From Nitrososphaerota archaeon (GTDB taxonomy: Archaea; Thermoproteota; Nitrososphaeria; Nitrososphaerales; Nitrosopumilaceae): DNA of 24,540 bases. A program made the translations under genes and the position numbers. Location of the stretch: assembly GCA_002698885.1 (NCBI GenBank), contig PAAH01000035.1, forward strand, positions 7,743 to 32,282. Reading direction: 5' to 3'. The notes under the pieces were generated by a model. That model saw only the letters and a list, made by a program, of their open reading frames with translations. It was not told where the DNA came from and ran no database searches. This document shows positions 5,179 through 19,780 of this stretch, piece after piece (the first letter of the stretch is position 1; each line of letters opens with the position of its first letter).

Positions 5179-5901
5179 CTATTTTTTGAATTTTCTATAT
5201 ATGAGGAATCCAATAACACCTAGTAATCCTATTAAAATCAGAATTGCACTAATTGCTGATAAATAATCATTAAGAAATAATTTCGTCTCAAACCATGCAT
5301 AAGGTAAAATTGTAAAAAAATCATACGCCGAAAAATCTTCAATTGTTCCTACAGCCAATGCATATTTTCCAGGAGTAGAATTTTCATCAAAAACGGCTAA
5401 ATAATAGGTTCCATCAACAGGAAAATCAAAATTAATTTCTTGGCGCTCCCAATATGTCACTTGTCCAAATGGCTCATAAAATTCCTTAGAAGGAATAATT
5501 CCATCATAGTCAAAAACATATGCATCATAACCTTGTGGTAAAGAAAAATCAAAACTTGTTCTTGGTTTTAAGATTTTGAATTCTTCAATTAAATCCAAGT
5601 GAGATTCAACGCCGATAAATGCAATAGATGGTGTAAATTCTATAAGATTTTCAAGTTTGGGAATTACAATACTTGCATAAAGTGGATCCCCCTGTTTTCC
5701 ATAAAAAGAGTAATACCGAATATCACCATTAATTTCTTCATACATTGCCCAAGAGATACTAGGATCAGGAATTTCTAATGAGCTGTCAATTGAAATATTT
5801 GAACCATCTGTAGGAATTAGTTTATGCGCATATGCTGTTGATGGTGTTAGCATCACTATTCCTATGGCAGTAATTAAAAATAGATTTTTTGTTCTATTCA
5901 T
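5179..5901 (-). CDS. Exported protein with C-terminal membrane anchor
   Basis: 240 residues. An N-terminal Sec signal peptide (residues 1-25, ending STAYA before H26) and a C-terminal hydrophobic helix (about 213-234) followed by RKFKK make an outward-facing protein anchored at its C-terminus. The extracellular part is acidic and rich in aromatic residues, with beta-type segments such as GTYYLAVFDENSTPGKYALAVG that resemble pre-peptidase or immunoglobulin-like domains. No catalytic motif is visible. The start is ATG at 5899-5901. The promoter carries one exact copy of the GTTAGCACTA element described for this region, 20 bases upstream of a TATA-like ATTAAATTC. Confidence 0.8.
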   Translation of the reverse strand: MNRTKNLFLITAIGIVMLTPSTAYAHKLIPTDGSNISIDSSLEIPDPSISWAMYEEINGDIRYYSFYGKQGDPLYASIVIPKLENLIEFTPSIAFIGVESHLDLIEEFKILKPRTSFDFSLPQGYDAYVFDYDGIIPSKEFYEPFGQVTYWERQEINFDFPVDGTYYLAVFDENSTPGKYALAVGTIEDFSAYDFFTILPYAWFETKLFLNDYLSAISAILILIGLLGVIGFLIYRKFKK

Positions 5902-5921: not shown

Positions 5922-5959
5922 GAATTTAATGGACACGAGTCTAAGTATCTAGTGCTAAC
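5922..5959 (-). promoter_or_regulatory. Promoter of the anchored exported protein, with NTTASCACTA element
   Basis: Read on the minus strand: GTTAGCACTA (5950-5959), then a TATA-like ATTAAATTC (about 5922-5930), then the ATG about 25 bases further. The element is an exact match to the copies at 8455-8464 and 10612-10621. There is no clear second copy at the 19-base spacing. The same element could also act on the divergent gene starting at 5998. Confidence 0.6.
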
Positions 5960-5997
5960 TAAGATGTAGTAATTTTTTGTGTTATATATTCAAGAAA

Positions 5998-6345
5998 ATG
6001 AACAATTTCATGCAGGAGCCAAAACCACCATTAAAATTCAAAATTAAAATTAATAGTCAGCGAGAAAATAATCTATATGGCAAGGCAATATTTCATGATA
6101 ATACCTACAAACTGGTTGTCAAACCAACAGAAGATAATGATAATATAAAAATTCCATTCAAAATACTGGGAATCATGAATGAACCTCATTTAGTTAGATT
6201 GTCTGGGATTACAGGTGCATACACCGAATTTAGGTTAGAGGTTCACGAATCACCAAAAAATATTGAAATTTACTCATCCTCTATCATAGATGATGTAAAA
6301 ACAAGTAAAAAAAAATATGACACAGTAGAAATTTTTGTTAATTAA
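5998..6345 (+). CDS. Small hypothetical soluble protein
   Basis: 115 residues from the ATG at 5998; a TTG 21 bases earlier would add seven residues and is less likely. The protein is rich in Lys, Ile and Asn and looks mostly beta: KFKIKINSQ, GKAIFHDNTYKLVVKP, TEFRLEVHE and DTVEIFVN are alternating strand-like segments. There is no signal peptide or membrane helix. No family is recognised. It is divergent from the exported protein at 5179-5901, and its stop codon abuts the end of the convergent oxygenase gene. Confidence 0.65.
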   Translation: MNNFMQEPKPPLKFKIKINSQRENNLYGKAIFHDNTYKLVVKPTEDNDNIKIPFKILGIMNEPHLVRLSGITGAYTEFRLEVHESPKNIEIYSSSIIDDVKTSKKKYDTVEIFVN

Positions 6346-7119
6346 TCAAGACCAACACAATAATGTAGATTTATCTGATTGACCGAAAAAAAAACCAACG
6401 CTGATCCTATCTAACACACCATTAATTTTTGATATGGTATGATAATGAATTGGATTTATGATAACTATATCTCCAACATTTGGTTTAATTTTTATGAATT
6501 TACTATCATTTACAACATCATCTGAATAGCCAAATTCAGGAAACCGAAATTGTTCATCACTCTTTTTCCATGATTTTTGATATAAAATTAGTTCACCGCC
6601 TGACTGAGCAGTCTGTAAATGTAAAACAGCAGATAATTGATTTCGTAGTTTTGAAACCGTATAATTATTTGCCTCAAAACTAGCATTATCTCTGTGAATA
6701 GGAAATGATTCATCACAATTATGAATCCTAAAAATACCATTTGAGTATATTTTGCCATTTTCTTTAGCTGGTATAATTTTTTTAGTGAATATTGCTGAGA
6801 GTAAATCTCGCATTATGTATCGTGGATCTTCAATATCAGAAAAGACCTGTCTTAGCTGATTATCCATTTGCTTTGTTTTTTCAAAATATTGCGTTTTGAA
6901 GTTAATGTATGAATTTAATGACTCACCGACATATCTCGAATTTGGAGAGAAATTAGTCATGTTATGAAACTCTGTAATTTTTTTAGAAACTTCCTTACAA
7001 GTTATTTCTGATAATGCATTTTCGAGAATTATTGCAGGTATTACACCAGTCACAAGATTATCTAAATCTGGACATTTTTGGTGTTTCTTAATGTAAACTG
7101 ATTTCCAATGTCTTTGCAA
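6346..7119 (-). CDS. 2-oxoglutarate/Fe(II)-dependent oxygenase (prolyl-hydroxylase-like)
   Basis: 257 residues with the full iron and co-substrate signature of the 2OG-Fe(II) oxygenase fold. H142-x-D144 (FPIHRDNAS) is followed by the beta strand GGELILYQKSW, then the distal His H227 (NPIHYHTIS) and R238, which would bind 2-oxoglutarate. These enzymes hydroxylate proteins or small molecules; the substrate is not predictable here. The N-terminal 100 residues are helical and unassigned. The only start that covers the domain well is a TTG (7117-7119), one base after the stop of the upstream gene, implying translational coupling with it. The next in-frame ATG would remove 53 residues. Confidence 0.82.
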   Translation of the reverse strand: MQRHWKSVYIKKHQKCPDLDNLVTGVIPAIILENALSEITCKEVSKKITEFHNMTNFSPNSRYVGESLNSYINFKTQYFEKTKQMDNQLRQVFSDIEDPRYIMRDLLSAIFTKKIIPAKENGKIYSNGIFRIHNCDESFPIHRDNASFEANNYTVSKLRNQLSAVLHLQTAQSGGELILYQKSWKKSDEQFRFPEFGYSDDVVNDSKFIKIKPNVGDIVIINPIHYHTISKINGVLDRISVGFFFGQSDKSTLLCWS

Positions 7120-7404
7120 TTAGTATCCACCTGCACCAGAATGAAAAACCTTACAAGTTAACCCATCATTAGAACGTGTTTCAATTTCACATTTGATGAA
7201 CTTCCCTTTTATTGCATCCTCAATTTGTTGAATTGTTCGTATACTAGGTTCTGCAGGTATACTCATAATGTCAATTTCTGTAAAAATAATTATCTCATTA
7301 TCGGCATAATCGTTTTTGTTTTCGTCTTTTCTATGAGTTACATTCATTTCAAATTTATTATTATCAATGACTTTTGTAACAGTGCCCCAAACTATGTCAT
7401 TCAT
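7120..7404 (-). CDS. Small SNase-like OB-fold protein, likely non-catalytic
   Basis: 94 residues. The opening WGTVTKVIDNNKFEMNV resembles the first strands of thermonuclease (SNase) domains, where 'GxVxxVxDGDTF' is usual. The later QQIEDAIKGKFIKCEIETRSNDG resembles their 'GKxVxxxxxxxDxYGR' region. The acidic/Arg active-site residues of true nucleases are not evident, and the domain is shorter than the usual ~130 residues, so it is probably a binding module. It ends GAGGY. It directly precedes the 2OG oxygenase (stop and start codons adjacent), so the two are probably one operon and may act together. Confidence 0.55.
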   Translation of the reverse strand: MNDIVWGTVTKVIDNNKFEMNVTHRKDENKNDYADNEIIIFTEIDIMSIPAEPSIRTIQQIEDAIKGKFIKCEIETRSNDGLTCKVFHSGAGGY

Positions 7405-7428
7405 ATAAAATCAGTTATAATGCAAATA

Positions 7429-8403
7429 CTATGGAGCAACTACAAGATTTAATGGCAAGTCCAATTTTCCAAATGGTTCAGCAATTCTCAAATAGTAATC
7501 TTTTCCCGAGTCATACAAAAAGTCTTCATAACTTCCATATCCAATTGCTGGTCCCCATAGAATCTCAAAGAATCTGTTCTGTCCTGGTTTCAGCACGACA
7601 TTCCCAGATGTAAAGTCTGAGCCCGAATTAACCCATTTATGACCACCATCCCAAACATTATAGTTACAAATTGAAGGACTTGTGCACGTCATAGTTACAT
7701 TACTGGAGGAGCCTGTGTTTTCAGCTAGGACTTTTAAGTTTAACAAAGCTTGACCAGTTGCAGTGTATGCAATGTTGTTATATTGCTTAACAGTACCCCG
7801 TTTTTCCTCTTGCCAGTTAGCTGCGTAATAATACGTGATAGGTCCTACCTGGTATGATTCACTGTTGTCTTTGTACATCTTTAGATTATAATCATCTTTG
7901 ATTACCTTCTCACAATCTCTGATTAACCTTGCATTCTCCTCATTTTGGCAAACCAAAAGCATCTCGTCTAATGTTTTATCTCCACTCTGACTAGTAGATT
8001 TTGGTGTTTGATCTTCTTGTGGTTGGTATTGTGATGGTTGGCTCATGTCGTTACCTACCGAACTTGCACTTACTTGCATGATTCCCATTTTTATTAAATA
8101 TTGAATTCCATTAAGAAAATCGTTTTCTGAAATTGCATCGTCTGCCCACCAACCTGCATTATTTTTTACCCAATCTGGTATACTATCAGAAGTAGATGCA
8201 CTACGTGTGGTTGATGGAACTGTGATTATGCCTTCCTCAATTAAAAATTGCATGCCTGATACAAATGCTTGATCATCAATTTGACCATCTGCCCACCAAC
8301 CTGCATTATTTTTTACCCAATCTGGAACATTTGCAGCATCTGCTAAACCTACAAATGAGGTTATGAGAATAATACTTGCCAAAACACTGATAATCTTTTT
8401 CAA
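7429..8403 (-). CDS. Secreted protein with two Trp-rich 'NNAGWWADG' repeats
   Basis: 324 residues: signal peptide (1-23, ending GLADA), then two copies of a ~45-residue unit. Each starts with (V/I)PDWVKNNAGWWAD and ends with the helix 'FLNGIQYLIKMGI'. A Ser/Gln/Pro-rich linker follows, then a C-terminal beta domain with two nearby cysteines (TCTSPSIC). The Trp-rich unit is common on exported proteins of ammonia-oxidising archaea; its function is unknown to me. The start is TTG (8401-8403), the only codon that leaves an intact signal peptide. The promoter has two copies of the shared element upstream of a TATA box. It is divergent from the SRPBCC gene at 8516. Confidence 0.85.
   Translation of the reverse strand: MKKIISVLASIILITSFVGLADAANVPDWVKNNAGWWADGQIDDQAFVSGMQFLIEEGIITVPSTTRSASTSDSIPDWVKNNAGWWADDAISENDFLNGIQYLIKMGIMQVSASSVGNDMSQPSQYQPQEDQTPKSTSQSGDKTLDEMLLVCQNEENARLIRDCEKVIKDDYNLKMYKDNSESYQVGPITYYYAANWQEEKRGTVKQYNNIAYTATGQALLNLKVLAENTGSSSNVTMTCTSPSICNYNVWDGGHKWVNSGSDFTSGNVVLKPGQNRFFEILWGPAIGYGSYEDFLYDSGKDYYLRIAEPFGKLDLPLNLVVAP
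8141..8325. repeat. Two identical 38-base direct repeats inside the secreted-protein gene
   Basis: Positions 8141-8178 and 8288-8325 are identical over 38 bases, 147 bases apart (start to start). They encode the PDWVKNNAGWWAD core of the two protein repeats. Complete identity including synonymous positions suggests recent duplication or gene conversion rather than protein constraint alone. Confidence 0.9.
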
Positions 8404-8423
8404 TAATTTTCTGCCTGTAATTT

Positions 8424-8464
8424 AATATATAAAGCACGTGCCTAGTTATACTACTAGTGCTAAC
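8424..8464 (-). promoter_or_regulatory. Promoter of secreted repeat protein with tandem NTTASCACTA elements
   Basis: On the minus strand: distal GTTAGCACTA (8455-8464), a degenerate proximal copy CTAGGCACG (8437-8445, 19 bases closer), then the TATA box in TTTATATATTA (about 8424-8432), about 25 bases before the TTG start. The layout matches the zinc-ribbon promoter at 10582-10621 almost to the base: the distal copy lies 52-53 and the proximal 33-34 bases from the start codon. Confidence 0.65.
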
Positions 8465-8515
8465 CTTTTCTGAACATTAATGATTTTAATTGATATAACA
8501 ATAATACACATTAAA

Positions 8516-8956
8516 ATGGTAAAATTTCAATTTACAAAAATCATTGATGTGGATAGAGACTTGATCTTTGAAATAAGTACTGATTACAAAAATTTTACAA
8601 AAGTTCTGCCAAAATATTTTAAAAATCTGGAGATAGTTGAAAGTAATGATAATAAAACAATAATAAAAGAAACAGTAAATTTTTTGAATAGGACAGATAC
8701 AATTTTAACAGAACATATAATCATCAAACCAGATCAACACATAATTACAATGCTAGATGGGCCAGCAAAAGATAGTTGTTTTGATGAAATATATGAAAAA
8801 AATGGCTCTAATACAAAAATTGTAATAAATGTAAATTTTATTCTGCATGGGAAATTAAAGATTATTGGATTTTTTGCAAAGAAAAAAATTCAAATGCATA
8901 TGGAACAGGTTATGAATGAGTTCGTAAGTTATGCTAAGAGCAATAAAACTAATTAG
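8516..8956 (+). CDS. SRPBCC (START-like) family protein, second copy
   Basis: 146 residues from the ATG at 8516. A start 36 bases earlier would add a hydrophobic dozen residues and would misalign it with the paralogue at 1196-1636, which begins in the same way (MSKISFEKII against MVKFQFTKII). Shared pattern: strand 1, the helix DLIFEISTDYKNFTKVLP, a beta sheet, and a long C-terminal helix (KKIQMHMEQVMNEFVSYA). This suggests binding of a hydrophobic ligand. It is divergent from the secreted repeat protein and runs convergent, with a one-base gap, into the flavoprotein gene. A distal copy of the regional promoter element lies 52 bases upstream of its start, but in reversed orientation. Confidence 0.72.
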   Translation: MVKFQFTKIIDVDRDLIFEISTDYKNFTKVLPKYFKNLEIVESNDNKTIIKETVNFLNRTDTILTEHIIIKPDQHIITMLDGPAKDSCFDEIYEKNGSNTKIVINVNFILHGKLKIIGFFAKKKIQMHMEQVMNEFVSYAKSNKTN

Positions 8957-8957
8957 A

Positions 8958-10295
8958 TTATCTATCTAAAAAATTCATTAATTTTGGATGAGCAAGAATT
9001 GAACTATGTGCTGCAGAATCAGTTCCGATACCATAACTGATAGTTGAATCACCCACAAAGAATAATCCGTCTACATTTTTTACGGAATGCGGCATTTTAT
9101 TTTTCCATACTAAACCTGGCTCCTTCACTACAGCCTCAACAAGTTTCCATGCCATACCTCTTTCCCAAAGTAATGCCATGTTAAAATCAGGATATATTTC
9201 AGAAAGCTCCTTTTTCATCTGTTCCACAATTTCTTTTATGCGACTTGGGTTATCTGTTTCTTCTGGCTTTACTGGAGTTCCAACAATTATCAAATGTTCA
9301 CCAGGAGGTGAAACAGATGGTGTAATATTTGAGATAAAGAATATTCCTTTTGACACATAATCTTTACCTACTGGAAAAACAACCTGTCTAGAATCAATTT
9401 GTTTTGATAATGCAAAATGAACCTCGACAACAGATGTAGTTTTATTGAGACGATTTGTCTGTGTTATGAATTCTTTATCAAATACTCCTTCATCAAATAA
9501 CTGATTTATTGCATGATATGCTGGAAATGAGATTACAACACAGTTAGTTTCCACATTTGTACCATCAGTCAATATAACACCTGTAACTTTTCCATCTGAA
9601 ATTGAGATTTTTTTCACAGACTTGCCTAAAATTACATCTGACTTTTTTTCTGTTATGTAATCTGCCATAACTTGAGAAATTCTATCATATCCACCCATGT
9701 CAGGATAAGCAAATTCACTTGTTCCACCTTTGAATGGATTTGCTCTAATTATCGTTCGTGCAAATTCACCAAGTGATATATGATCTGTCGTATCAGCAAA
9801 CGCCAACATACAGACTGCATCAAAAAAACGCTTTGAATGGTAATCCAATCTTTTTGTGACTTGTGTTAATGGTGTTTTATCAAGTTCTTCAGTTTTTTTC
9901 ATACTTGTGAATGCCATTGGTAGTAAGATTCTAAGTAATGATAATCTACTACGAAATGGAATCAATGACATCTGGAGAACATCTAAAATCCCTTTTGGAT
10001 ATTTATGAAATCCACTCCCGTCATAAAATGCAATATCTCCAACTATTGCCAACTTTAACCTTGATTCTATATTGACATCTTTCATGACTTGATATATTGC
10101 AGATTTTTTATAGAATGGCATTATATGAAATCCATTATCTAAAATATGATTTTTATATAATATTGATGAGGTTCTTCCTCCTACTTGTCTAGATTTTTCA
10201 AAGATTTTTACATTAATATTTTTATTTACCAGAAGTAGGCCGGTTGACAACCCACCTATTCCCGCACCAATAATTACAACTGGATGTTTAGTCAT
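8958..10295 (-). CDS. FAD-dependent oxidoreductase, phytoene-desaturase/amine-oxidase type
   Basis: 445 residues. The N-terminal dinucleotide-binding motif is GAGIGG (residues 10-15) and continues into the family motif FEKSRQVGGRTSS; the C-terminal FAD motif is VDGLFFVGDSTISYGIGTDSAA. This combination defines the carotenoid desaturase/protoporphyrinogen oxidase/amine oxidase superfamily. The substrate is unknown; carotenoid or other isoprenoid desaturation or isomerisation is plausible. The start is ATG 10293-10295, 29 bases after the end of the zinc-ribbon gene on the same strand, so it probably shares that gene's element-bearing promoter. Related flavoproteins are often found in light-induced gene sets of bacteria (known), which fits the neighbouring CarH-like sensor (inference). 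Confidence 0.85.
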   Translation of the reverse strand: MTKHPVVIIGAGIGGLSTGLLLVNKNINVKIFEKSRQVGGRTSSILYKNHILDNGFHIMPFYKKSAIYQVMKDVNIESRLKLAIVGDIAFYDGSGFHKYPKGILDVLQMSLIPFRSRLSLLRILLPMAFTSMKKTEELDKTPLTQVTKRLDYHSKRFFDAVCMLAFADTTDHISLGEFARTIIRANPFKGGTSEFAYPDMGGYDRISQVMADYITEKKSDVILGKSVKKISISDGKVTGVILTDGTNVETNCVVISFPAYHAINQLFDEGVFDKEFITQTNRLNKTTSVVEVHFALSKQIDSRQVVFPVGKDYVSKGIFFISNITPSVSPPGEHLIIVGTPVKPEETDNPSRIKEIVEQMKKELSEIYPDFNMALLWERGMAWKLVEAVVKEPGLVWKNKMPHSVKNVDGLFFVGDSTISYGIGTDSAAHSSILAHPKLMNFLDR

Positions 10296-10324
10296 TAAAT
10301 TATTAACCTATCATCCCAAGTTAC

Positions 10325-10561
10325 TTATGCTAAAGAAAAGTTTTTTCCTAGATCGTTATTTGAATTATTGCTAACTTTCGCTTTTTTCTTATTTCTTGAC
10401 TTTGTTCTCAAGATCATCTTGCAACATGGGCATCTAATTTCTTCTGTTGACATAAATACTTCGCACCAACTACAGCGTTTCAAACCAAATTGATATTTTT
10501 TTGCATTTGGTATCGATTGATGCTTCAAGTGAATACAAATTCCTTTGCATGATGCTCCCAT
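10325..10561 (-). CDS. Small zinc-ribbon protein of thaumarchaeal type
   Basis: 78 residues with three cysteine clusters: C5-x3-C9, C30-x2-C33 and C44-P-C46-C47. A basic Lys/Arg tail (RTKSRNKKKAK) follows. The N-terminus MGASCKGICI and the KRCSWCEVF...RCPCCKMILRTK pattern are familiar from the many short zinc-ribbon proteins of ammonia-oxidising archaea, usually suspected to be nucleic-acid or protein-binding regulators. The start is ATG 10559-10561. Its promoter has two element copies. It is probably the first gene of a unit with the flavoprotein that follows. Confidence 0.8.
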   Translation of the reverse strand: MGASCKGICIHLKHQSIPNAKKYQFGLKRCSWCEVFMSTEEIRCPCCKMILRTKSRNKKKAKVSNNSNNDLGKNFSLA

Positions 10562-10581
10562 ACACTATCTATTCATTCATC

Positions 10582-10621
10582 ATATATATCTCTAGTGTTA
10601 ATTTAATAAAATAGTGCTAAC
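10582..10621 (-). promoter_or_regulatory. Promoter of the zinc-ribbon gene with tandem elements
   Basis: On the minus strand: distal GTTAGCACTA (10612-10621), proximal ATTAACACTA (10593-10602) exactly 19 bases nearer the gene, then the TATA box ATATATAT (10582-10589), about 25 bases before the ATG. This is the clearest example of the two-copy arrangement. Confidence 0.7.
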
Positions 10622-10664
10622 TAATTTAGATTGGTGGAAATTTAATGAAAAAATAAAAAATGGG

Positions 10665-11078
10665 CTAATAGTATGCAGCACTAGCAGAACCAATTATAGA
10701 TATAACAGATTCATGACTTGATATTTCTGCAACCGTACTTACATTCATTAATCCAGTTACAACAAGTTTTGTTTTTTCCCATCTATGTACTGCAACTTGA
10801 ACATGGTGTTTTTCACTTATGTCATATTTTGGACGTTCGATGTCTATTCCTTCTTTGAAGGCTACTTCTAGATGCACATGTGGAAGACTATCTGAAAACT
10901 TTCTCTCCAAAGCCATTATCTTCACCAGTAAATTGTTGTTTACTTTAGGATATGCTGTAGATATTCTGTTCAAAAAGTCATCATAGAGTTTCTCTATGTC
11001 TGCACCTGGTTCTAAAGAATTACCAGAATCCACCAATTCTCTCCACCTTTGAATAGTCTTCGTGTAGGATGAATCCAC
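10665..11078 (-). CDS. Hypothetical soluble protein translationally coupled to a membrane protein
   Basis: 137 residues from a GTG start (11076-11078) that lies 59 bases inside the upstream membrane-protein gene. A second GTG at 11031-11033 would shorten it by 15 residues and reduce the overlap. The N-terminal half is helical (TKTIQRWRELVDSG, LYDDFLNRISTAYP). The second half is beta-rich, with His residues in LPHVHLEVAF and SEKHHVQVAVHRW that could bind a metal. No family is recognised. The overlap with the membrane gene implies co-expression and possibly a complex. Confidence 0.7.
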   Translation of the reverse strand: MDSSYTKTIQRWRELVDSGNSLEPGADIEKLYDDFLNRISTAYPKVNNNLLVKIMALERKFSDSLPHVHLEVAFKEGIDIERPKYDISEKHHVQVAVHRWEKTKLVVTGLMNVSTVAEISSHESVISIIGSASAAYY

Positions 11079-11598
11079 CCATAAGTCCCATTATTGCTCC
11101 AAAAATCACATGAAGTATTAATGAATGGTAGTAGATTCTGTCACTGTTAAACAACAACGTGGCCAAAGCCTCTTGTTCATCCAAGTCAAAGTCAGATATG
11201 TCGGTGATAATTAGTTCTACTTCCATTATTGGAGTCATAACAAACATGTGAATTGGTAAAAATGCTAATGTGAAAACAATAAGTCCAGTTAACACACCGG
11301 TCATAATTGCCTTGGGTACGGTCACCAATCTAAAAAATCTCCATATGTTTGAAGCCAATAAGTACATAGCACCAATCAATGCTGCGACGCCCATATGGGC
11401 CATAAATCCTAGTGCGATCCCAGAGAATTCATCAACACCCATTGTTACTCCAATGGTTTTGTAGAATGTTCCTGTAGGAATATCTAGCATTTGATCTATT
11501 GCAAAAAACGAAGAAAACAAAGCAAAACCTGCAACGAGGCCAGCTCCTATTCCTGCTTTTACGAGACCTTTCTTGGTTGGTAGTTGTATTGCACTCAT
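11020..11598 (-). CDS. Integral membrane protein, about five helices, function unknown
   Basis: 192 residues with hydrophobic helices near residues 12-32, 58-82, 92-122 and 155-178. An acidic loop (ITDISDFDLDEQEALATLLFNSD) faces one side before the last helix. Small residues (G, A, M) dominate the helices, as in tightly packed bundles. The protein ends with a short cytoplasmic-type tail. The start is ATG 11596-11598 with a TATA box 25 bases upstream. The gene overlaps the next by 59 bases. No family recognised. The promoter has one element copy between TATA and start and one further upstream. Confidence 0.78.
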   Translation of the reverse strand: MSAIQLPTKKGLVKAGIGAGLVAGFALFSSFFAIDQMLDIPTGTFYKTIGVTMGVDEFSGIALGFMAHMGVAALIGAMYLLASNIWRFFRLVTVPKAIMTGVLTGLIVFTLAFLPIHMFVMTPIMEVELIITDISDFDLDEQEALATLLFNSDRIYYHSLILHVIFGAIMGLMGGFILHEDYSKVERIGGFW

Positions 11599-11607
11599 TA
11601 ATCAACA

Positions 11608-11659
11608 AGTGCTAACTGGATATATATCGTTTATGCACTATGATTAGCATAGTGGTAAA
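11608..11659 (-). promoter_or_regulatory. Promoter of the membrane-protein pair: two elements plus an inverted repeat
   Basis: On the minus strand: the distal element TTTACCACTA (11650-11659) lies 53 bases from the start codon, the usual position. The TATA box is ATATATAT (11620-11627). A second exact GTTAGCACT (11608-11616) lies between TATA and the start, the classic place for a repressor site. A perfect 7-base inverted repeat, CACTATG-ATTAG-CATAGTG (11636-11654), overlaps the distal element. Confidence 0.6.
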
Positions 11660-11680
11660 AATTTACGATCTAATGCATAA

Positions 11681-11720
11681 CTTAGCACTAAATGAAAAAA
11701 TAACAATTGGGTTTTATATT
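11681..11720 (+). promoter_or_regulatory. Promoter of the small gene at 11741 with upstream element
   Basis: On the plus strand: CTTAGCACTA (11681-11690), a weak second copy AATAACAAT (11699-11707; 7 of 9 bases of ATTAACACT), then the TATA box TTTTATATT (11712-11720), then the ATG at 11741. Orientation and distances relative to the gene are the same as in the minus-strand promoters at 8424-8464 and 10582-10621. Confidence 0.6.
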
Positions 11721-11740
11721 CTAACTAATTTAAAATAGAC

Positions 11741-11926
11741 ATGACAGAAGAACAAGAATGGGCAAGTTTGTTGGCAGAAGTTTTCGATAAACTAACTGCA
11801 AAACATGCAGCAATTACCTACAAGTTCGATAAACTAGAAATGACTGGTACAGTAGAACGAAATGGTAAAAAAGTTCCAACCGGAACTGTAATACTAACAG
11901 GCGGCCTAACTATAACAACCAAATAA
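11741..11926 (+). CDS. Small hypothetical protein (61 residues)
   Basis: A helical N-terminus (EEQEWASLLAEVFDKLTAK) is followed by a beta-hairpin-like half (ITYKFDKLEMTGTVERNGKK, then TGTVILTGGLTITTK). Acidic at the start and Thr/Gly-rich at the end. No family is recognised. The ATG start has a TATA box at the normal leaderless distance and a good upstream element, which argues strongly for a real gene. The next gene follows after 15 bases and is probably co-transcribed. Confidence 0.7.
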   Translation: MTEEQEWASLLAEVFDKLTAKHAAITYKFDKLEMTGTVERNGKKVPTGTVILTGGLTITTK

Positions 11927-11941
11927 ACAGGAATAGCGAAA

Positions 11942-12307
11942 ATGAAATCTAAGCTTCCTGCCAATTTTTTAATATATCTTAAAAGTGGACAGCTCACTAT
12001 TACTAATAAGGAGAAAACTGCAATAGAGTTTAATTCTAAAGGCAGTACAAGGACGCTTGATATAATAGATTTACCTACAAAAATACCAGGTAATATGAGT
12101 CTGTTAAAACAATTAACAGAAGCTAAAGATTTAGCAAAAATGCTAAGCAAAGAAGGAGTTACCTTGGAGGTTAAACATAAAGGAAAACTAATTCTACGTC
12201 TTGGTAAAAATGCAAGACCAAAGTTATCTACATTGGTTACATTTTCTCGTAGCGTAGAAATAGTAGATCTTAGTGAACTTCGAAAACTTGACAAAGAAAT
12301 TTCCTAA
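11942..12307 (+). CDS. Hypothetical basic soluble protein
   Basis: 121 residues, lysine-rich, alternating beta and helical segments: FLIYLKSGQLTITNKEK, EFNSKGSTRTLDIIDLP, a helix (LLKQLTEAKDLAKMLSKEG), then VTLEVKHKGKLILRLGKNA. It is 15 bases behind the 61-residue gene, and a DICT-domain gene follows 55 bases later behind its own AT-rich promoter. No family recognised. The alternating hydrophobic strands with a central helix would fit a small ligand- or protein-binding fold. Confidence 0.7.
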   Translation: MKSKLPANFLIYLKSGQLTITNKEKTAIEFNSKGSTRTLDIIDLPTKIPGNMSLLKQLTEAKDLAKMLSKEGVTLEVKHKGKLILRLGKNARPKLSTLVTFSRSVEIVDLSELRKLDKEIS

Positions 12308-12362
12308 TTAAAATTATTTCAATTTTAGTTTCCATTAAATATTCTGAGTTTTAACTAGAATT

Positions 12363-12950
12363 ATGACATTACTGAATGACAGCATTGTAGAAACTGTTTG
12401 GGAAAAATTCCCTGAAAAACGAGGTGTTCCGGAACAAGGAGATGAAATTTTTACCAAATGGAATTTTCAAGATTTCCAAGATAGTGGATACCTAAACTTT
12501 AGAGCTGATAGGGCAGATCTTTTTGCACTGAGTATCATGGTTGAAAATTATGCAGCAAAACACAAATATCCATTACTAGCATCATTTGAAGACGAAAGTA
12601 GATACAAGTTTGTTGAAGATAGATACATGAAATTGATGAAATCAATACCACGTGTATGGGTAATTGGTAATTTCAACAATCCAAATCTTGCTCAGACTGT
12701 TCCACCAAGTTGTAAAGTGATTAGTTGCATAGGCACACCAATATCCACTGTTTGGGCAGTTGTAACACGCGGAAGCGATGGTCCAGTAGGACTAATTGCA
12801 GACGAAGTTGGTAATCGAAAGTTTAAAGGATTTTTTACTACAAATCCAGATGTTATGCAACATGCAGTTGACTTGATTGCCGAAACCCTTGTCACAACAT
12901 TTGATTTTAACAAATCAGAGTATGCTGAGGGTGGAAAAGGCGGCTACTAA
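12363..12950 (+). CDS. DICT-domain sensory protein
   Basis: 195 residues. Residues about 50-180 fit the DICT sensory domain: a helix with Glu (ALSIMVENYAAKH), the strand/turn PLLASFEDESRYKFVEDRYM, a core strand VWVIGNFNNP, then WAVVTRGSDGPVGLIADE and the ending KFKGFFTTNPDVMQHAVDLIAETL. DICT domains occur with two-component, diguanylate cyclase and haloarchaeal bacterio-opsin-activator-like proteins and have been linked to light responses (established idea, mechanism unknown). Here the domain stands almost alone, with no DNA-binding part. It is convergent with the B12-binding sensor gene, one base apart. It has its own TATA-like sequence (TTAAATATT) but no copy of the regional element. Confidence 0.65.
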   Translation: MTLLNDSIVETVWEKFPEKRGVPEQGDEIFTKWNFQDFQDSGYLNFRADRADLFALSIMVENYAAKHKYPLLASFEDESRYKFVEDRYMKLMKSIPRVWVIGNFNNPNLAQTVPPSCKVISCIGTPISTVWAVVTRGSDGPVGLIADEVGNRKFKGFFTTNPDVMQHAVDLIAETLVTTFDFNKSEYAEGGKGGY

Positions 12951-12951
12951 T

Positions 12952-13806
12952 CTATTTTTTAGATTTTTTTAGAATTTTTGGTAATTGTACAAGTGATTGG
13001 TTACTATCAATAATAGTTGCATCAAATTTTGCTTTGGAACCATCAGTAAAAGCTTGACCACCAACAAAAATTGGAATTTTTTTATTAAATTCCCGAATTT
13101 TTTTAGTCAATCTTTGCCCTGCAGGTATACTATCAGGGAGTGTGATTGAAATTATAACTCCGTCAGCAGATACACTTTTCATAAAATTTAAGACAGATTC
13201 TGCCGGTGTTGACGGTGATAGATTAAATGTTGTAAACCCTCTGTTTGCCAAATAACTTTCTACAACACTGCAACCTAAACTGTGTTCTTCTCCAACAGGA
13301 GTCGTGATAATGATTTTTCCATTTGTGCCTTTATGTTTGCGCTCTTCAAGGATAACTTTTACTAGACTGTGTGCAACATTGCTTGCAACATGTTCAGTTG
13401 CAACTGAAAGAATTCCATTAGACCACATCTCGCCTATTTTTTCCATGACAGGATTTAGAATTTTTTCAAAAAACTGATCTAACGAATTACTATTCAAGAA
13501 TCCAGCATATACTTTTTTTGCACCTTGAAGATCACCTTCCGTGAGAAATGTAAATGTCTGTAACTGTAATTTTTCTATTATCTTTTCTCTTTTTTCTCTA
13601 TCCTTTGGTGTATTTTGTAATAGAAATGCCTGGATTTTAGGATCATGTCTGTACTCCGCAGGTATATCATCCTGTGTTACATTATGGATTACACCTAGAT
13701 ACTTGATAGTTTCTTGCCTAGAGGTCTTGTGGAGTTTATCCCATGTACTTTTTACTAAATACAAATAATCAACGTTCTTTACATTTTTTTTTCTAATGTA
13801 AACCAA
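12952..13806 (-). CDS. Cobalamin-binding sensor, CarH/LitR-like, without MerR domain
   Basis: 284 residues. About 75-155 is the helical B12-binding cap domain with MWSNGILSVATEH, i.e. W128-x9-E138-H139, the signature of CarH-type photoreceptors. About 160-284 is the Rossmann-like B12 domain; GEEHSLG (H175) matches the CarH lower-ligand loop rather than the DxHxxG of methionine synthase, and LSPSTPAES follows as in CarH. The N-terminus is not the MerR helix-turn-helix of CarH but a short beta module (VYIRKKNVKNVDYLYLV...QETIKYLG) resembling the start of IS1634/IS4-type transposases. Start TTG (13804-13806); no better codon exists. It is convergent with the DICT gene and divergent from the SDR gene. 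Confidence 0.85.
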   Translation of the reverse strand: MVYIRKKNVKNVDYLYLVKSTWDKLHKTSRQETIKYLGVIHNVTQDDIPAEYRHDPKIQAFLLQNTPKDREKREKIIEKLQLQTFTFLTEGDLQGAKKVYAGFLNSNSLDQFFEKILNPVMEKIGEMWSNGILSVATEHVASNVAHSLVKVILEERKHKGTNGKIIITTPVGEEHSLGCSVVESYLANRGFTTFNLSPSTPAESVLNFMKSVSADGVIISITLPDSIPAGQRLTKKIREFNKKIPIFVGGQAFTDGSKAKFDATIIDSNQSLVQLPKILKKSKK

Positions 13807-13825
13807 ATTCAGTATAGGTGCATTT

Positions 13826-13857
13826 TAATGCCTAATAAGGTTTATCTAGTGCCTAAT
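13826..13857. promoter_or_regulatory. Two direct repeats between the B12-sensor and SDR genes
   Basis: TAATGCCTAAT (13826-13836) and TAGTGCCTAAT (13847-13857) differ at one base and are spaced 21 bases apart, two helical turns. Read on the minus strand they are ATTAGGCATTA and ATTAGGCACTA, close to the regional element with one extra base. The near copy overlaps the expected TATA position of the sensor gene, so it could be an autoregulatory operator. Confidence 0.5.
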
Positions 13858-13892
13858 ATAGATTTATTAGATAATTTCTTTAATTATAATTA

Positions 13893-13931
13893 ATTACCAC
13901 TATTAATTCAAAATTCCAATATGGTATATTA
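13893..13931 (+). promoter_or_regulatory. Promoter of the SDR gene with upstream element
   Basis: ATTACCACTA (13893-13902) lies about 22 bases before the TATA box TATATTA (13925-13931); the TTG start is at 13956. The element matches the NTTASCACTA pattern and its distance to TATA agrees with the other promoters, although the start codon is a few bases further downstream here. Confidence 0.5.
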
Positions 13932-13955: not shown

Positions 13956-15398
13956 TTGTCTCAAAAAACTAAACAGTATTCCACTCAACAAATAAAGCCT
14001 TATTCAATTTTGGTTACTGGTGCAACTGGCTTTATCGGCAAAAAATTACTAACAAAACTATCAGATTCAGGCTATAAAGTTAAGGCAATGTCAAGATCAA
14101 AATATCCAGATACAGAAAATATCCAGTATGTCAAAGCAGATGCACTTGATGCCGAATCATTATCCAATGCAACTAACGGAATTGAAACTGCTTTTTATTT
14201 ACTACATTCAATGGAGGGTTCAAAAAAGGAATGGGGAAAATTTGCAAGTAGGGAAAAACAACAAGCAGAGAATTTCTTGAAAGCTGCAACAGATGCCGGG
14301 GTAAAAAGAATAATCTATCTTGGAGGATTAGTTGACGAAGATACAGATTTATCAGAACATATGAAAAGCAGACAAACTGTTGGTAAAATTCTGGCATCGG
14401 GAAATATTCCTGTAACAGAACTACGTGCATCAGTTATTGTTGGTGCAGAAGGAGGATCATTTGCAATGCTCAGATATCTTGTAGAACGATTACCACTAAT
14501 GGTATGTCCAAAATGGGTCAAGTCACAAACACAGCCAATTGGAGTAGATAATGTTGTAGATTATCTAATTGGAGTAATGAAAAATAATGAAGCCGCTGGA
14601 AAGATCTTAGAAATAGGTGGTCCAGATATAATGACATATGAGCAATTAATGAGATTATATTCATCAATCCTTAATAGAAATCTTAACATAATTCAAATAC
14701 CATTTTTGACCCCAAGGTTATCATCATATTGGGTAGATTTAGTAACTCCAGTAAAAGCATCTCTAGCACGACCACTTGTTGACAGTTTAGTGCATGATTC
14801 AATTGTAAAAGACAAAGCAATTGAAAAATTAGTTCCACTGAAACTTGAACATATGAATGAAGCGATAAATAATGCAATAACTGAATCTAAGGCATTCAAA
14901 CCTATCACAAAGTCACCTGAAGAAAAAACATCATACAAAGTTAACCAAAAAATACTCTTAGTTTCACTGTGTGCAATGGCCATAATTGGCTCTACATATT
15001 ATTGGATGGATGATCGAACAGATGTATGGGAAATTTCTTGGGTATTCGGTTCACTCATTTGGTATGCGGCAATTCTTTTTGCAATCTCATTTGTAAAGCA
15101 AAAAGCAAGATTAGGTTATCTAATTGGAGGTGTTTTGGCGTGGATAACAATGGCATTTTGGTTGTTTGATAATTTTTACGTGGTGTTTGATATATCGTTG
15201 GTGGCAGCACAGCCAAGTATTGACGTAACATTGCGAAATTTCATAGGAGTTGCATTTGCAGGGCTTGCTGTATTTTCATCCCACAATGTATTTCACAAAG
15301 TCAGAGTTTATCAAGCAAGAGGAGAGCCAGTATTGGAATCAGCTGCTGCAGAAGTTCCAAATGGTACAAGACCTGTGTATAACACAGATTTTTCATAA
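13956..15398 (+). CDS. SDR-family NAD(P)-binding oxidoreductase with C-terminal four-helix membrane domain
   Basis: 480 residues. The N-terminal extended/atypical SDR Rossmann domain begins ILVTGATGFIGKKLL (about 18-32) with the second NAD contact YVKADALD. It shows the GGLVDED core strand and a helix with Lys, but the usual Tyr-x3-Lys pair is not obvious, as in NmrA-like/atypical SDRs. A middle substrate domain reaches about residue 315. Then come four hydrophobic helices (about 333-350, 360-382, 388-412 and 425-445), so the enzyme is membrane-bound. TTG start; an in-frame stop lies directly upstream. It is divergent from the B12 sensor. Multi-domain SDRs of this kind accompany LitR/CarH regulators in bacteria (from memory, not checked), supporting a regulatory link. 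Confidence 0.8.
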   Translation: MSQKTKQYSTQQIKPYSILVTGATGFIGKKLLTKLSDSGYKVKAMSRSKYPDTENIQYVKADALDAESLSNATNGIETAFYLLHSMEGSKKEWGKFASREKQQAENFLKAATDAGVKRIIYLGGLVDEDTDLSEHMKSRQTVGKILASGNIPVTELRASVIVGAEGGSFAMLRYLVERLPLMVCPKWVKSQTQPIGVDNVVDYLIGVMKNNEAAGKILEIGGPDIMTYEQLMRLYSSILNRNLNIIQIPFLTPRLSSYWVDLVTPVKASLARPLVDSLVHDSIVKDKAIEKLVPLKLEHMNEAINNAITESKAFKPITKSPEEKTSYKVNQKILLVSLCAMAIIGSTYYWMDDRTDVWEISWVFGSLIWYAAILFAISFVKQKARLGYLIGGVLAWITMAFWLFDNFYVVFDISLVAAQPSIDVTLRNFIGVAFAGLAVFSSHNVFHKVRVYQARGEPVLESAAAEVPNGTRPVYNTDFS

Positions 15399-18934: not shown

Positions 18935-19780
18935 TTACTCAGAGCGCATACGCTTTAACCATTCTGGCTCTGGTTCAGATGATGGCTTCGATTCATTTTT
19001 TTCAGTCTCAGGTGGAATTACCATTGGAGGTCTTGGAATATTATTCTCTGGTTTTGTTTCACTTGGTGGTTCGGGTAAATGTGTTTGTGCTGATACTTGT
19101 TGATTGTTTCCTGATAGATATGAAACAGCAGAATCCTGTATAGGGTGAGATTCAGGTTCTGTAGGAATTACATCCTCAAGTGAGAGATTGGATAGCCTAG
19201 ATTTGACTTTAGCAATCTCAACTTTCTCGTGTTTCATATGTTGAAGTATTTCGTCAGTTTCTTTTTTAACTAAATCGAATGTCTCCTGAGAAATCTCGTC
19301 ACTCTTACTTTGAACTTTTGCATCAAACAGCATGACTTTTACAGATTTAATTTCTGTATCGATTTCAACGACTCTTTCTTCTAATTCAGAAATAATGTCA
19401 GATTCAGTTTCCTTGAGCGAGTTTAATTTGCTCTTGTATTGACCGTGGATTAATTCTGCATCAGATTTCATTTTATCGTTGTCAGAGACAATTTCCATTA
19501 ACGCAGTAAGACGTCGGACAGTAAGCTCCTTTTCTCGGAGTAGACGTTGTGAGTCCAATCGCCATTTTGGTATGAAAATTACTACTTCAGGGTTGTTTGG
19601 ATTTGGTTGTAGTACGAGCTGAGAGTATGGTACTTGTTTTAAACAACCTGAACCACAGTTGATACCAACAGTCTGAGTTGAACCATCAATATCAGTGGTA
19701 GTGCCTAAAATTTTACCCATTGGAGCACCATACATATCCTTGACAGGTTTTCCAATGATCACAGCCTCGTTATTACTCAT
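18935..19780 (-). CDS. cdvA: CdvA, archaeal cell-division protein
   Basis: DNA- and membrane-associated protein that recruits the ESCRT-III-like CdvB at the division site. 281 residues. The N-terminal PRC-barrel-like domain (1-75) contains GKPVKDMYGAPMGKILGTTTD and ends in FIPKWRLDSQRLLREKE, as in Sulfolobus CdvA. A long coiled coil follows (about 75-185; KSKLNSLKETESDIISELEE), then a Pro/Glu/Ser-rich linker and a C-terminal PEPEWLKRMRSE that may be the CdvB-binding peptide. Longer than the ~240-residue crenarchaeal form because of the linker. cdvB and cdvC are not adjacent, as is usual in Thaumarchaeota. The promoter has a TATA box 25 bases from the ATG with a proximal-type element upstream. 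Confidence 0.9.
   Translation of the reverse strand: MSNNEAVIIGKPVKDMYGAPMGKILGTTTDIDGSTQTVGINCGSGCLKQVPYSQLVLQPNPNNPEVVIFIPKWRLDSQRLLREKELTVRRLTALMEIVSDNDKMKSDAELIHGQYKSKLNSLKETESDIISELEERVVEIDTEIKSVKVMLFDAKVQSKSDEISQETFDLVKKETDEILQHMKHEKVEIAKVKSRLSNLSLEDVIPTEPESHPIQDSAVSYLSGNNQQVSAQTHLPEPPSETKPENNIPRPPMVIPPETEKNESKPSSEPEPEWLKRMRSE

Follow-up and report, generated by a model that had tools for sequence, protein, structure and literature searches.

A tandem promoter element probably links a CarH-like cobalamin protein to a photoprotection regulon in Nitrosopumilaceae

The described relatives of CarH and LitR, the B12-based light regulators closest to the system reported here, act as dark repressors in the published extracts on which we draw. 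Two further features of such proteins are the upper-face motif W-x9-EH, as defined in an extract of PMC9304148, and the light signature GxxW, EH, GxxH, and GxxxP, as given in an extract of PMC11796333. Here, we analyzed a window of 24,540 nucleotides (the whole stretch under study; contig PAAH01000035.1 of assembly GCA_002698885.1, positions 7,743 to 32,282) from a Ca. Nitrosopelagicus-type ammonia-oxidizing archaeon (AOA), in which an original prediction, made from the sequence only, had described a shared promoter element and a local regulon. In its full form, the element consists of two direct tandem copies, TTAGCACTAG-N9/10-TTAGCAYTA. We consider it likely that this element is the operator of a small Nitrosopumilaceae photoprotection regulon and that the gene for its regulator, a CarH-like B12 light sensor (P0007; positions 12952-13806), belongs to the same cluster, and the element probably marks a switch for the sunlight response of these microbes. 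Among the matches listed in open-licence PMC literature, there was no account of the element, a CarH-like regulator, a B12 light sensor, or a light-specific operator in AOA.

The original prediction had missed the key target, the cobalamin-protein gene itself (minus strand), which is preceded by the tandem TTAGGCACTA/TTAGGCATTA. Among 61 relatives, a long orthologue of this protein was found at 24 loci, and the tandem is present at all 24 (directly in front of the gene in 21), compared with a mean of 0.55 of 24 in shuffled loci and with 3 among 46 control loci. At three loci (L052 to L054; genomes G031, G011, and G008), the CarH-like gene is of a divergent class and stands directly behind the orthologue of gene 8403 (genes are named here by their start positions), with the tandem in front of both. 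The CarH-like gene occurs in 89 of 199 genomes and 12 of 22 genera of the family; in the family to which genome G053 belongs, 3 of 7 genomes have it. Promoters were read in the best 30 loci of the 89 family genomes, the rest of the 89 being met by the fixed-pattern search described below at most, and in 3 loci from the G053 family; the tandem lies within 120 bp of the start in all 33. Two of these repeat earlier loci, and in the pooled set of distinct loci the pair immediately precedes the CarH-like gene at 52 of 55 and the gene just upstream at the other 3.

Among near-complete genomes, a fixed repeat pattern (at most one mismatch) was found in 19 of the 20 that have the CarH-like gene and in none of the 9 that lack it, with 3 matches in all for the reversed control. 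This co-occurrence has a P value of 1e-6 with kinship ignored, in 29 genomes that were chosen on CarH-like gene status, and the same contrast recurs within genus g32 (9 versus 1). Some fixed-pattern matches lie away from the CarH-like gene, and genome G053 was missed because of its repeat spacing. A looser pattern, CACTAN{8,13}TTANNCACTA, gave 20 matches in 19 of the 61 genomes versus 49 for its reversed control; 14 of the 20 precede the CarH-like gene, and the other six do not (those of G042, G019, G023, G043, and G049 and one of the two in G020). Genomes G115, G126, G160, G208, G210, G212, G218, and G092 each gave a second, more distant CarH-like match (32 to 40% identity to the query) and may carry two such sensors.

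The unit of the element is a tandem repeat. Across 52 promoters, the period is 19 bp in 31, 20 bp in 17, 21 bp in 2, and 18 bp in 2. An alignment of 29 promoters (L177 to L205), anchored at the near copy, is conserved at the 80% level only in TTAGCACTA, TTAGCATTA, and a TTAnATA box. The near copy abuts the TATA box in the 33 promoters outside Nitrosopelagicus; in the 19 Nitrosopelagicus promoters, the pair lies 14 to 19 bases from the start codon, compared with 28 to 32 elsewhere.

Within the window, TTASCACTA has 7 matches versus 0.37 expected (about 19-fold), a number reached in none of 100 shuffles. One of the seven (14490) is coding, within the SDR gene and at the same coding place in relatives, and was left out of the count. 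All six sites first named are present where they were reported, with gaps to a TATA-like box of 19 (5950), 21 (8455), 22 (10612), 22 (11681), 23 (11650), and 22 (13893) bases, in agreement with the set distance that had been claimed; the gap at 10612, to ATATATAT, was counted by eye, and the script gave a spurious box at 4. The exact 9-mer AGTGCTAAC does occur four times, always intergenic (5951, 8456, 10613, and 11608), with no further exact copy in the window. Second copies 19 bp nearer the gene are likewise real at 8403 (8438-8445, degenerate) and 10561 (10593-10601), and a shared promoter element with two-turn tandem copies is thereby borne out; the weak second copy suggested for 11741 is unconvincing. 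The uniform orientation relative to the genes is not strict, as the divergent 11598/11741 region has both orientations, more clearly in relatives, and placement upstream of TATA applies to the six named copies and not to the one at 11607-11615.

Conservation in front of orthologues, which had been proposed as a check, was found at several promoters. In 11 of 14 loci encoding the 11598 protein (records of uncultured marine group I, Thaumarchaeota, and Ca. Nitrosopelagicus), the intergenic region shared with 11741 is packed with copies (TTAGGCACTAG, TTACCACTAG, and TTATGCACTAG) in both orientations; at L019, L020, and L022, the 11598 promoter has no copies. A position weight matrix (PWM) built from the six first-named sites scored at least 13.5 in 13 of 16 promoters of 11598 orthologues and at least 10 in 18 of 21 promoters of 8403 orthologues, the window's own included in each case (22 loci were supplied for 8403, and L158, whose alignment began late, was dropped). 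Genomes G009, G027, and G028 fall below in both sets; we take their 11598 orthologue to lie inside an operon, and G028 has a site farther upstream of its 8403 orthologue (L105:7779). Many 8403 orthologues keep the tandem GTTAGGCACTAG-N-ATTAGCACTTG before the TATA box, the tandem at the 10561 promoter is kept in G028 and G019 (L105 and L106), and SDR orthologues, or a short open reading frame (ORF) before one, have the tandem in front in L239, L240, L241, L242, and L245. The copy at 5950 has a counterpart at the G028 orthologue (L105:5160), and the same pattern was not found at the G019 orthologue (L106).

P0007 has the C-terminal four-helix and Rossmann cobalamin-binding domain. Its W-x9-EH motif is WSNGILSVATEH, and the motif is present in 24 of 24 and 33 of 33 loci of the two sets. 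Residues 173 to 250 contain the cobalamin-binding motif D/ExHx2G/P ... SxT/V ... GG; the G is replaced by P, as the motif allows, in L053 to L055 and by S in L052. Three parts of the light signature are matched (GEMW, EH, and GEEH), and the GxxxP position reads SPSTP in P0007 and, in the alignment, GTSLP in the genome G033 orthologue. The best structural matches of the cobalamin domain are photocobilins (8j2w, 8j2x, and 8j2y); P0007 ends after this domain, and no further domain was found. A MerR helix-turn-helix was not matched either in whole P0007 at an E value of 0.001 or in residues 1 to 67 at an E value of 10 (with HMMER filters), and CarH sequence matches begin at residue 78 or later. 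In AF2 models of the cobalamin protein, the N-terminal part forms three strands followed by short helices in place of the MerR helix-turn-helix. This N-terminal domain (window 13606-13806, minus strand) had no confident Pfam or PDB match, the PDB matches being all weak; a B12-domain label is attached to 98 of the 100 homologues listed, P0140 has none, and P0148 has a different one.

From these features we infer a repressor, the cobalamin protein, which binds the element under the control of adenosylcobalamin and light. In the dark, two or more units of the adenosylcobalamin-bound protein would bind both copies on one DNA face, probably through the basic N-terminal beta-sheet domain, and the bound oligomer would block TBP/TFB. 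Light would break the Co-C bond and the oligomer would leave the DNA, after which the regulator gene and the photoprotection genes (those for the flavin adenine dinucleotide [FAD]-dependent oxidoreductase, SDR, and exported and membrane proteins and, in some other genera, photolyase) would be transcribed. A period of 19 to 20 bp puts the copies on nearly the same helix face, which suits an oligomer. We also lean, somewhat less firmly, toward the broader view that AOA have their own B12 photoreceptor transcription factor of new architecture, in which a CarH-type cobalamin domain is joined to an undescribed three-stranded DNA-binding domain reading TTAGCACTA tandem repeats at the TATA/BRE boundary (BRE, TFB recognition element) and controlling a photoprotection regulon, with cobalamin, for which biosynthesis genes are present, doubling as the light sensor.

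The sign of regulation is the least certain step, and on our analysis a repressor appears at least as likely as an activator. Archaeal activators usually bind upstream of TATA, and the six first-named copies lie 19 to 23 bases upstream of it; the regulon and light sensor could thus be the same while the bound protein activates, recruiting TBP/TFB from the tandem, with light altering activation. We regard this as unlikely, as the near copy touching TATA in the 33 promoters outside Nitrosopelagicus should hinder TFB and therefore favors repression, the place of the Nitrosopelagicus pair near the start codon is also suited to blocking transcription, and the described CarH/LitR relatives repress. 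The original suggestion of a probable activator is therefore unsupported.

Several observations weigh against a regulon controlled by the cobalamin protein. In the window's own assembly (746 kb, 64% complete), a genome-wide pattern search found no enrichment of single TTASCACTA (17 matches versus 29 for the reversed pattern) or of TTANNCACTA (23 versus 92). The ten TTASCACTA matches outside the window comprise seven in long ORFs, one in a 102-amino-acid ORF of the other strand, and two intergenic ones (C24, i.e., L005, and C28, i.e., L008). What speaks for the element is therefore its arrangement and conservation and not the 9-mer by itself. Six Nitrosopelagicus photolyase loci (L169 to L174) have no convincing element, and in three genomes that are 64 to 65% complete (G001, G012, and G029) the element accompanies the 8403 orthologue, with no CarH-like gene found.

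The last of these points would also fit a different binder, namely, a small winged-helix, MEDS, or DICT-like protein or a DNA-binding partner controlled by the cobalamin protein, much as AerR modulates CrtJ in the extract of PMC9144470 that we cite. In L026 and L110, the neighbors of the CarH-like gene include MEDS (PF14417) and winged-helix (PF14947) genes, and DNA binding is no more than a proposed role of the cobalamin protein's N-terminal domain. Nevertheless, the fixed tandem pattern is absent from all nine genomes without the CarH-like gene, and close winged-helix orthologues were not found in the element-bearing genomes G019 (95% complete), G033 (99%), and G053 (98%), on which ground the 91-amino-acid winged-helix protein was rejected as a general binder. 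Activation, or a partner protein acting on the element, is possible; we consider a different binder doubtful.

A core-promoter class, in which the near copy is a special BRE for a dedicated TFB paralogue, is very improbable. The BRE/TFB place is just upstream of TATA, where the near copy stands, and a TFB gene lies beside the CarH-like gene in genomes G033 and G099; extant mesophilic AOA have 4 to 11 TFB copies according to an extract of PMC7554672, which also counts in its favor. Against it, the same letters recur 19 to 20 bp farther upstream, both orientations occur at 11598/11741, and no TFB was found among 20 window proteins scanned (L026 scanned in part). Chance clustering of an AT-rich word, to which the genome-wide rarity of the 9-mer relative to its reversed control might point, is practically dismissed by the conservation across genera, the co-occurrence with the CarH-like gene, and the shuffles.

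The targets first listed (a flavoprotein, an SDR enzyme, and membrane and exported proteins) belong to a regulon that we regard as real, and the element occurs in many genera and not at this locus alone. Coordinates are given in Table 1. In genome G133, eight tandem pairs occur within 17 kb, including pairs before the orthologues of the FAD oxidoreductase, cobalamin protein, SDR, 8403, and 61-amino-acid protein genes, and the cluster also encodes a photolyase (L239:12748-14127) and a DUF1722 gene divergent from 8403. In some genera other than that of the window, photolyase and DUF1722 genes are part of the cluster. Of the 44 genomes examined that have the CarH-like gene, full-length photolyase was found in 17 (18 when a fragment is counted), versus 0 of 6 that lack it (P value = 0.075). 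Fifteen of the 17 photolyase genes stand no more than 10 kb from the CarH-like gene, and the remaining two have the tandem 213 and 216 bp upstream; in all, 3 of the 17 have a same-orientation tandem within 1.6 kb. The window's own assembly, 64% complete, gave no photolyase match. Photolyase as a Nitrosopelagicus target was considered and found unsupported; the nearest thing to the element is a weak TAGTGAnAA word, some 297 bases upstream, at four of the six loci.

Orthologues of the DICT-like protein (12363-12950) matched PF10069 at E values of 0.0067 (L239), 0.078 (L026), and 0.24 (L110), all below the cut-off, and two had no match; those in L026 and L110 have tandem copies in front. Beside the CarH-like gene of L026 (Nitrosopelagicus) are genes for a winged-helix protein (PF14947; 6587-6862, minus strand) and a MEDS sensory protein (PF14417; 6945-7517, minus strand). 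The TFB (TFIIB) paralogue genes mentioned above are at L107:10716-11648 (genome G033, with a single TTAGCACTAG upstream at L107:10528) and L245:7639-8628 (genome G099). Outside the cluster, intergenic copies were seen upstream of the orthologue of a 190-amino-acid protein, in L005 around 1501 and in L022 as the pair TTATGCACTA...TTAGCACTA (19122-19143, minus strand); this gene is a possible further regulon member.

Table 1. Genes and element copies in the window
Feature	Position	Strand	Remarks
Exported, membrane-anchored 240-amino-acid protein	5179..5901	-	Signal and C-terminal hydrophobic segment by eye
Copy TTAGCACTA	5950..5958	-	In front of gene 5179-5901
Exported protein, two DWVKNNAGWW repeats, regulon member	7429..8403	-	
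Proximal degenerate copy CTAGGCAC	8438..8445	-	Adjoins TTTATATA; counterpart ATTAGCACTTG before TATA box in many orthologues
Distal copy TTAGCACTA	8455..8463	-	In front of gene 7429-8403
FAD-dependent amine-oxidase-type oxidoreductase	8958..10295	-	PF01593, E 4e-30; downstream of zinc-ribbon-like gene
78-amino-acid protein, first gene of FAD operon	10325..10561	-	Zinc-ribbon-like by cysteine pattern only; no Pfam match
Proximal copy TTAACACTA	10593..10601	-	19 bp nearer gene, adjoins ATATATAT; kept in L105, L106
Distal copy TTAGCACTA	10612..10620	-	In front of zinc-ribbon-like gene, then FAD oxidoreductase gene
192-amino-acid membrane protein	11020..11598	-	DUF1440-like, weak, E 0.02
Copy TTAGCACTT	11607..11615	-	Downstream of TATA box, before start codon of 11020-11598
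Copy TTATGCACTA	11631..11640	+	Strand of 11741 operon; counterparts in relatives
Copy TTACCACTA	11650..11658	-	Upstream of TATA box of gene 11020-11598
Copy TTATGCATTA	11671..11680	-	Pairs with 11650-11658; tandem in L032
Copy TTAGCACTA	11682..11690	+	In front of gene 11741-11926
61-amino-acid conserved protein, first gene of operon	11741..11926	+	
DICT-like sensory protein, weak family assignment	12363..12950	+	No PF10069 match for window protein
CarH-like cobalamin-binding protein (P0007), proposed regulator	12952..13806	-	B12-binding_2 and B12-binding; W-x9-EH; ExHxxG...SxT...GG
Proximal copy TTAGGCATTA	13826..13835	-	In front of cobalamin-protein gene
Distal copy TTAGGCACTA	13847..13856	-	In front of cobalamin-protein gene
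Copy TTACCACTA	13894..13902	+	In front of SDR gene
SDR/NmrA-type protein, hydrophobic C-terminal part	13956..15398	+	PF05368/PF13460

Sunlight is thought to limit where AOA are active, and a conserved operator together with a likely photoreceptor offers named genes and a short DNA probe for light/dark work. If true, regulation by the cobalamin protein would bring archaeal transcription, through a different DNA-binding module, into the range of B12-based photoreception. P0007 resembles CarH and class I LitR (Thermus, Myxococcus, and Bacillus) in its cobalamin domain with W-x9-EH and D/ExHx2G...SxT/V...GG, in its CarH-like fold, and in direct-repeat operators overlapping promoter elements. In contrast to them, it is archaeal, has a modelled N-terminal three-stranded sheet with no MerR helix-turn-helix found, and is associated with TTAGCACTA repeats every 18 to 21 bp, whereas CarH has 11-bp nnnnTnnACAn repeats; its response to light is one that we infer. 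As both a MerR domain and the 11-bp operator were looked for and neither was found, we do not class P0007 as a CarH/LitR member. The light regulons of class II LitR (Pseudomonas) keep similar company, with photolyase, SDR, FAD-dependent oxidoreductase, and DUF1722/RudS (extracts of PMC9758184 and PMC11417400), although class II is described there as retaining one of two B12-binding domains, both of which are present in P0007, and the general transcription machinery here is archaeal. Photocobilins share the cobalamin domain, of which they are the top structural matches, but P0007 has no domain after it. The AerR/AppA B12 co-regulators likewise have a related cobalamin-type domain without MerR, and by analogy P0007 could act through a partner. 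If the steps proposed here hold, the archaeal system works like CarH/LitR and would be a new variant of B12-based photoregulation, in archaea.

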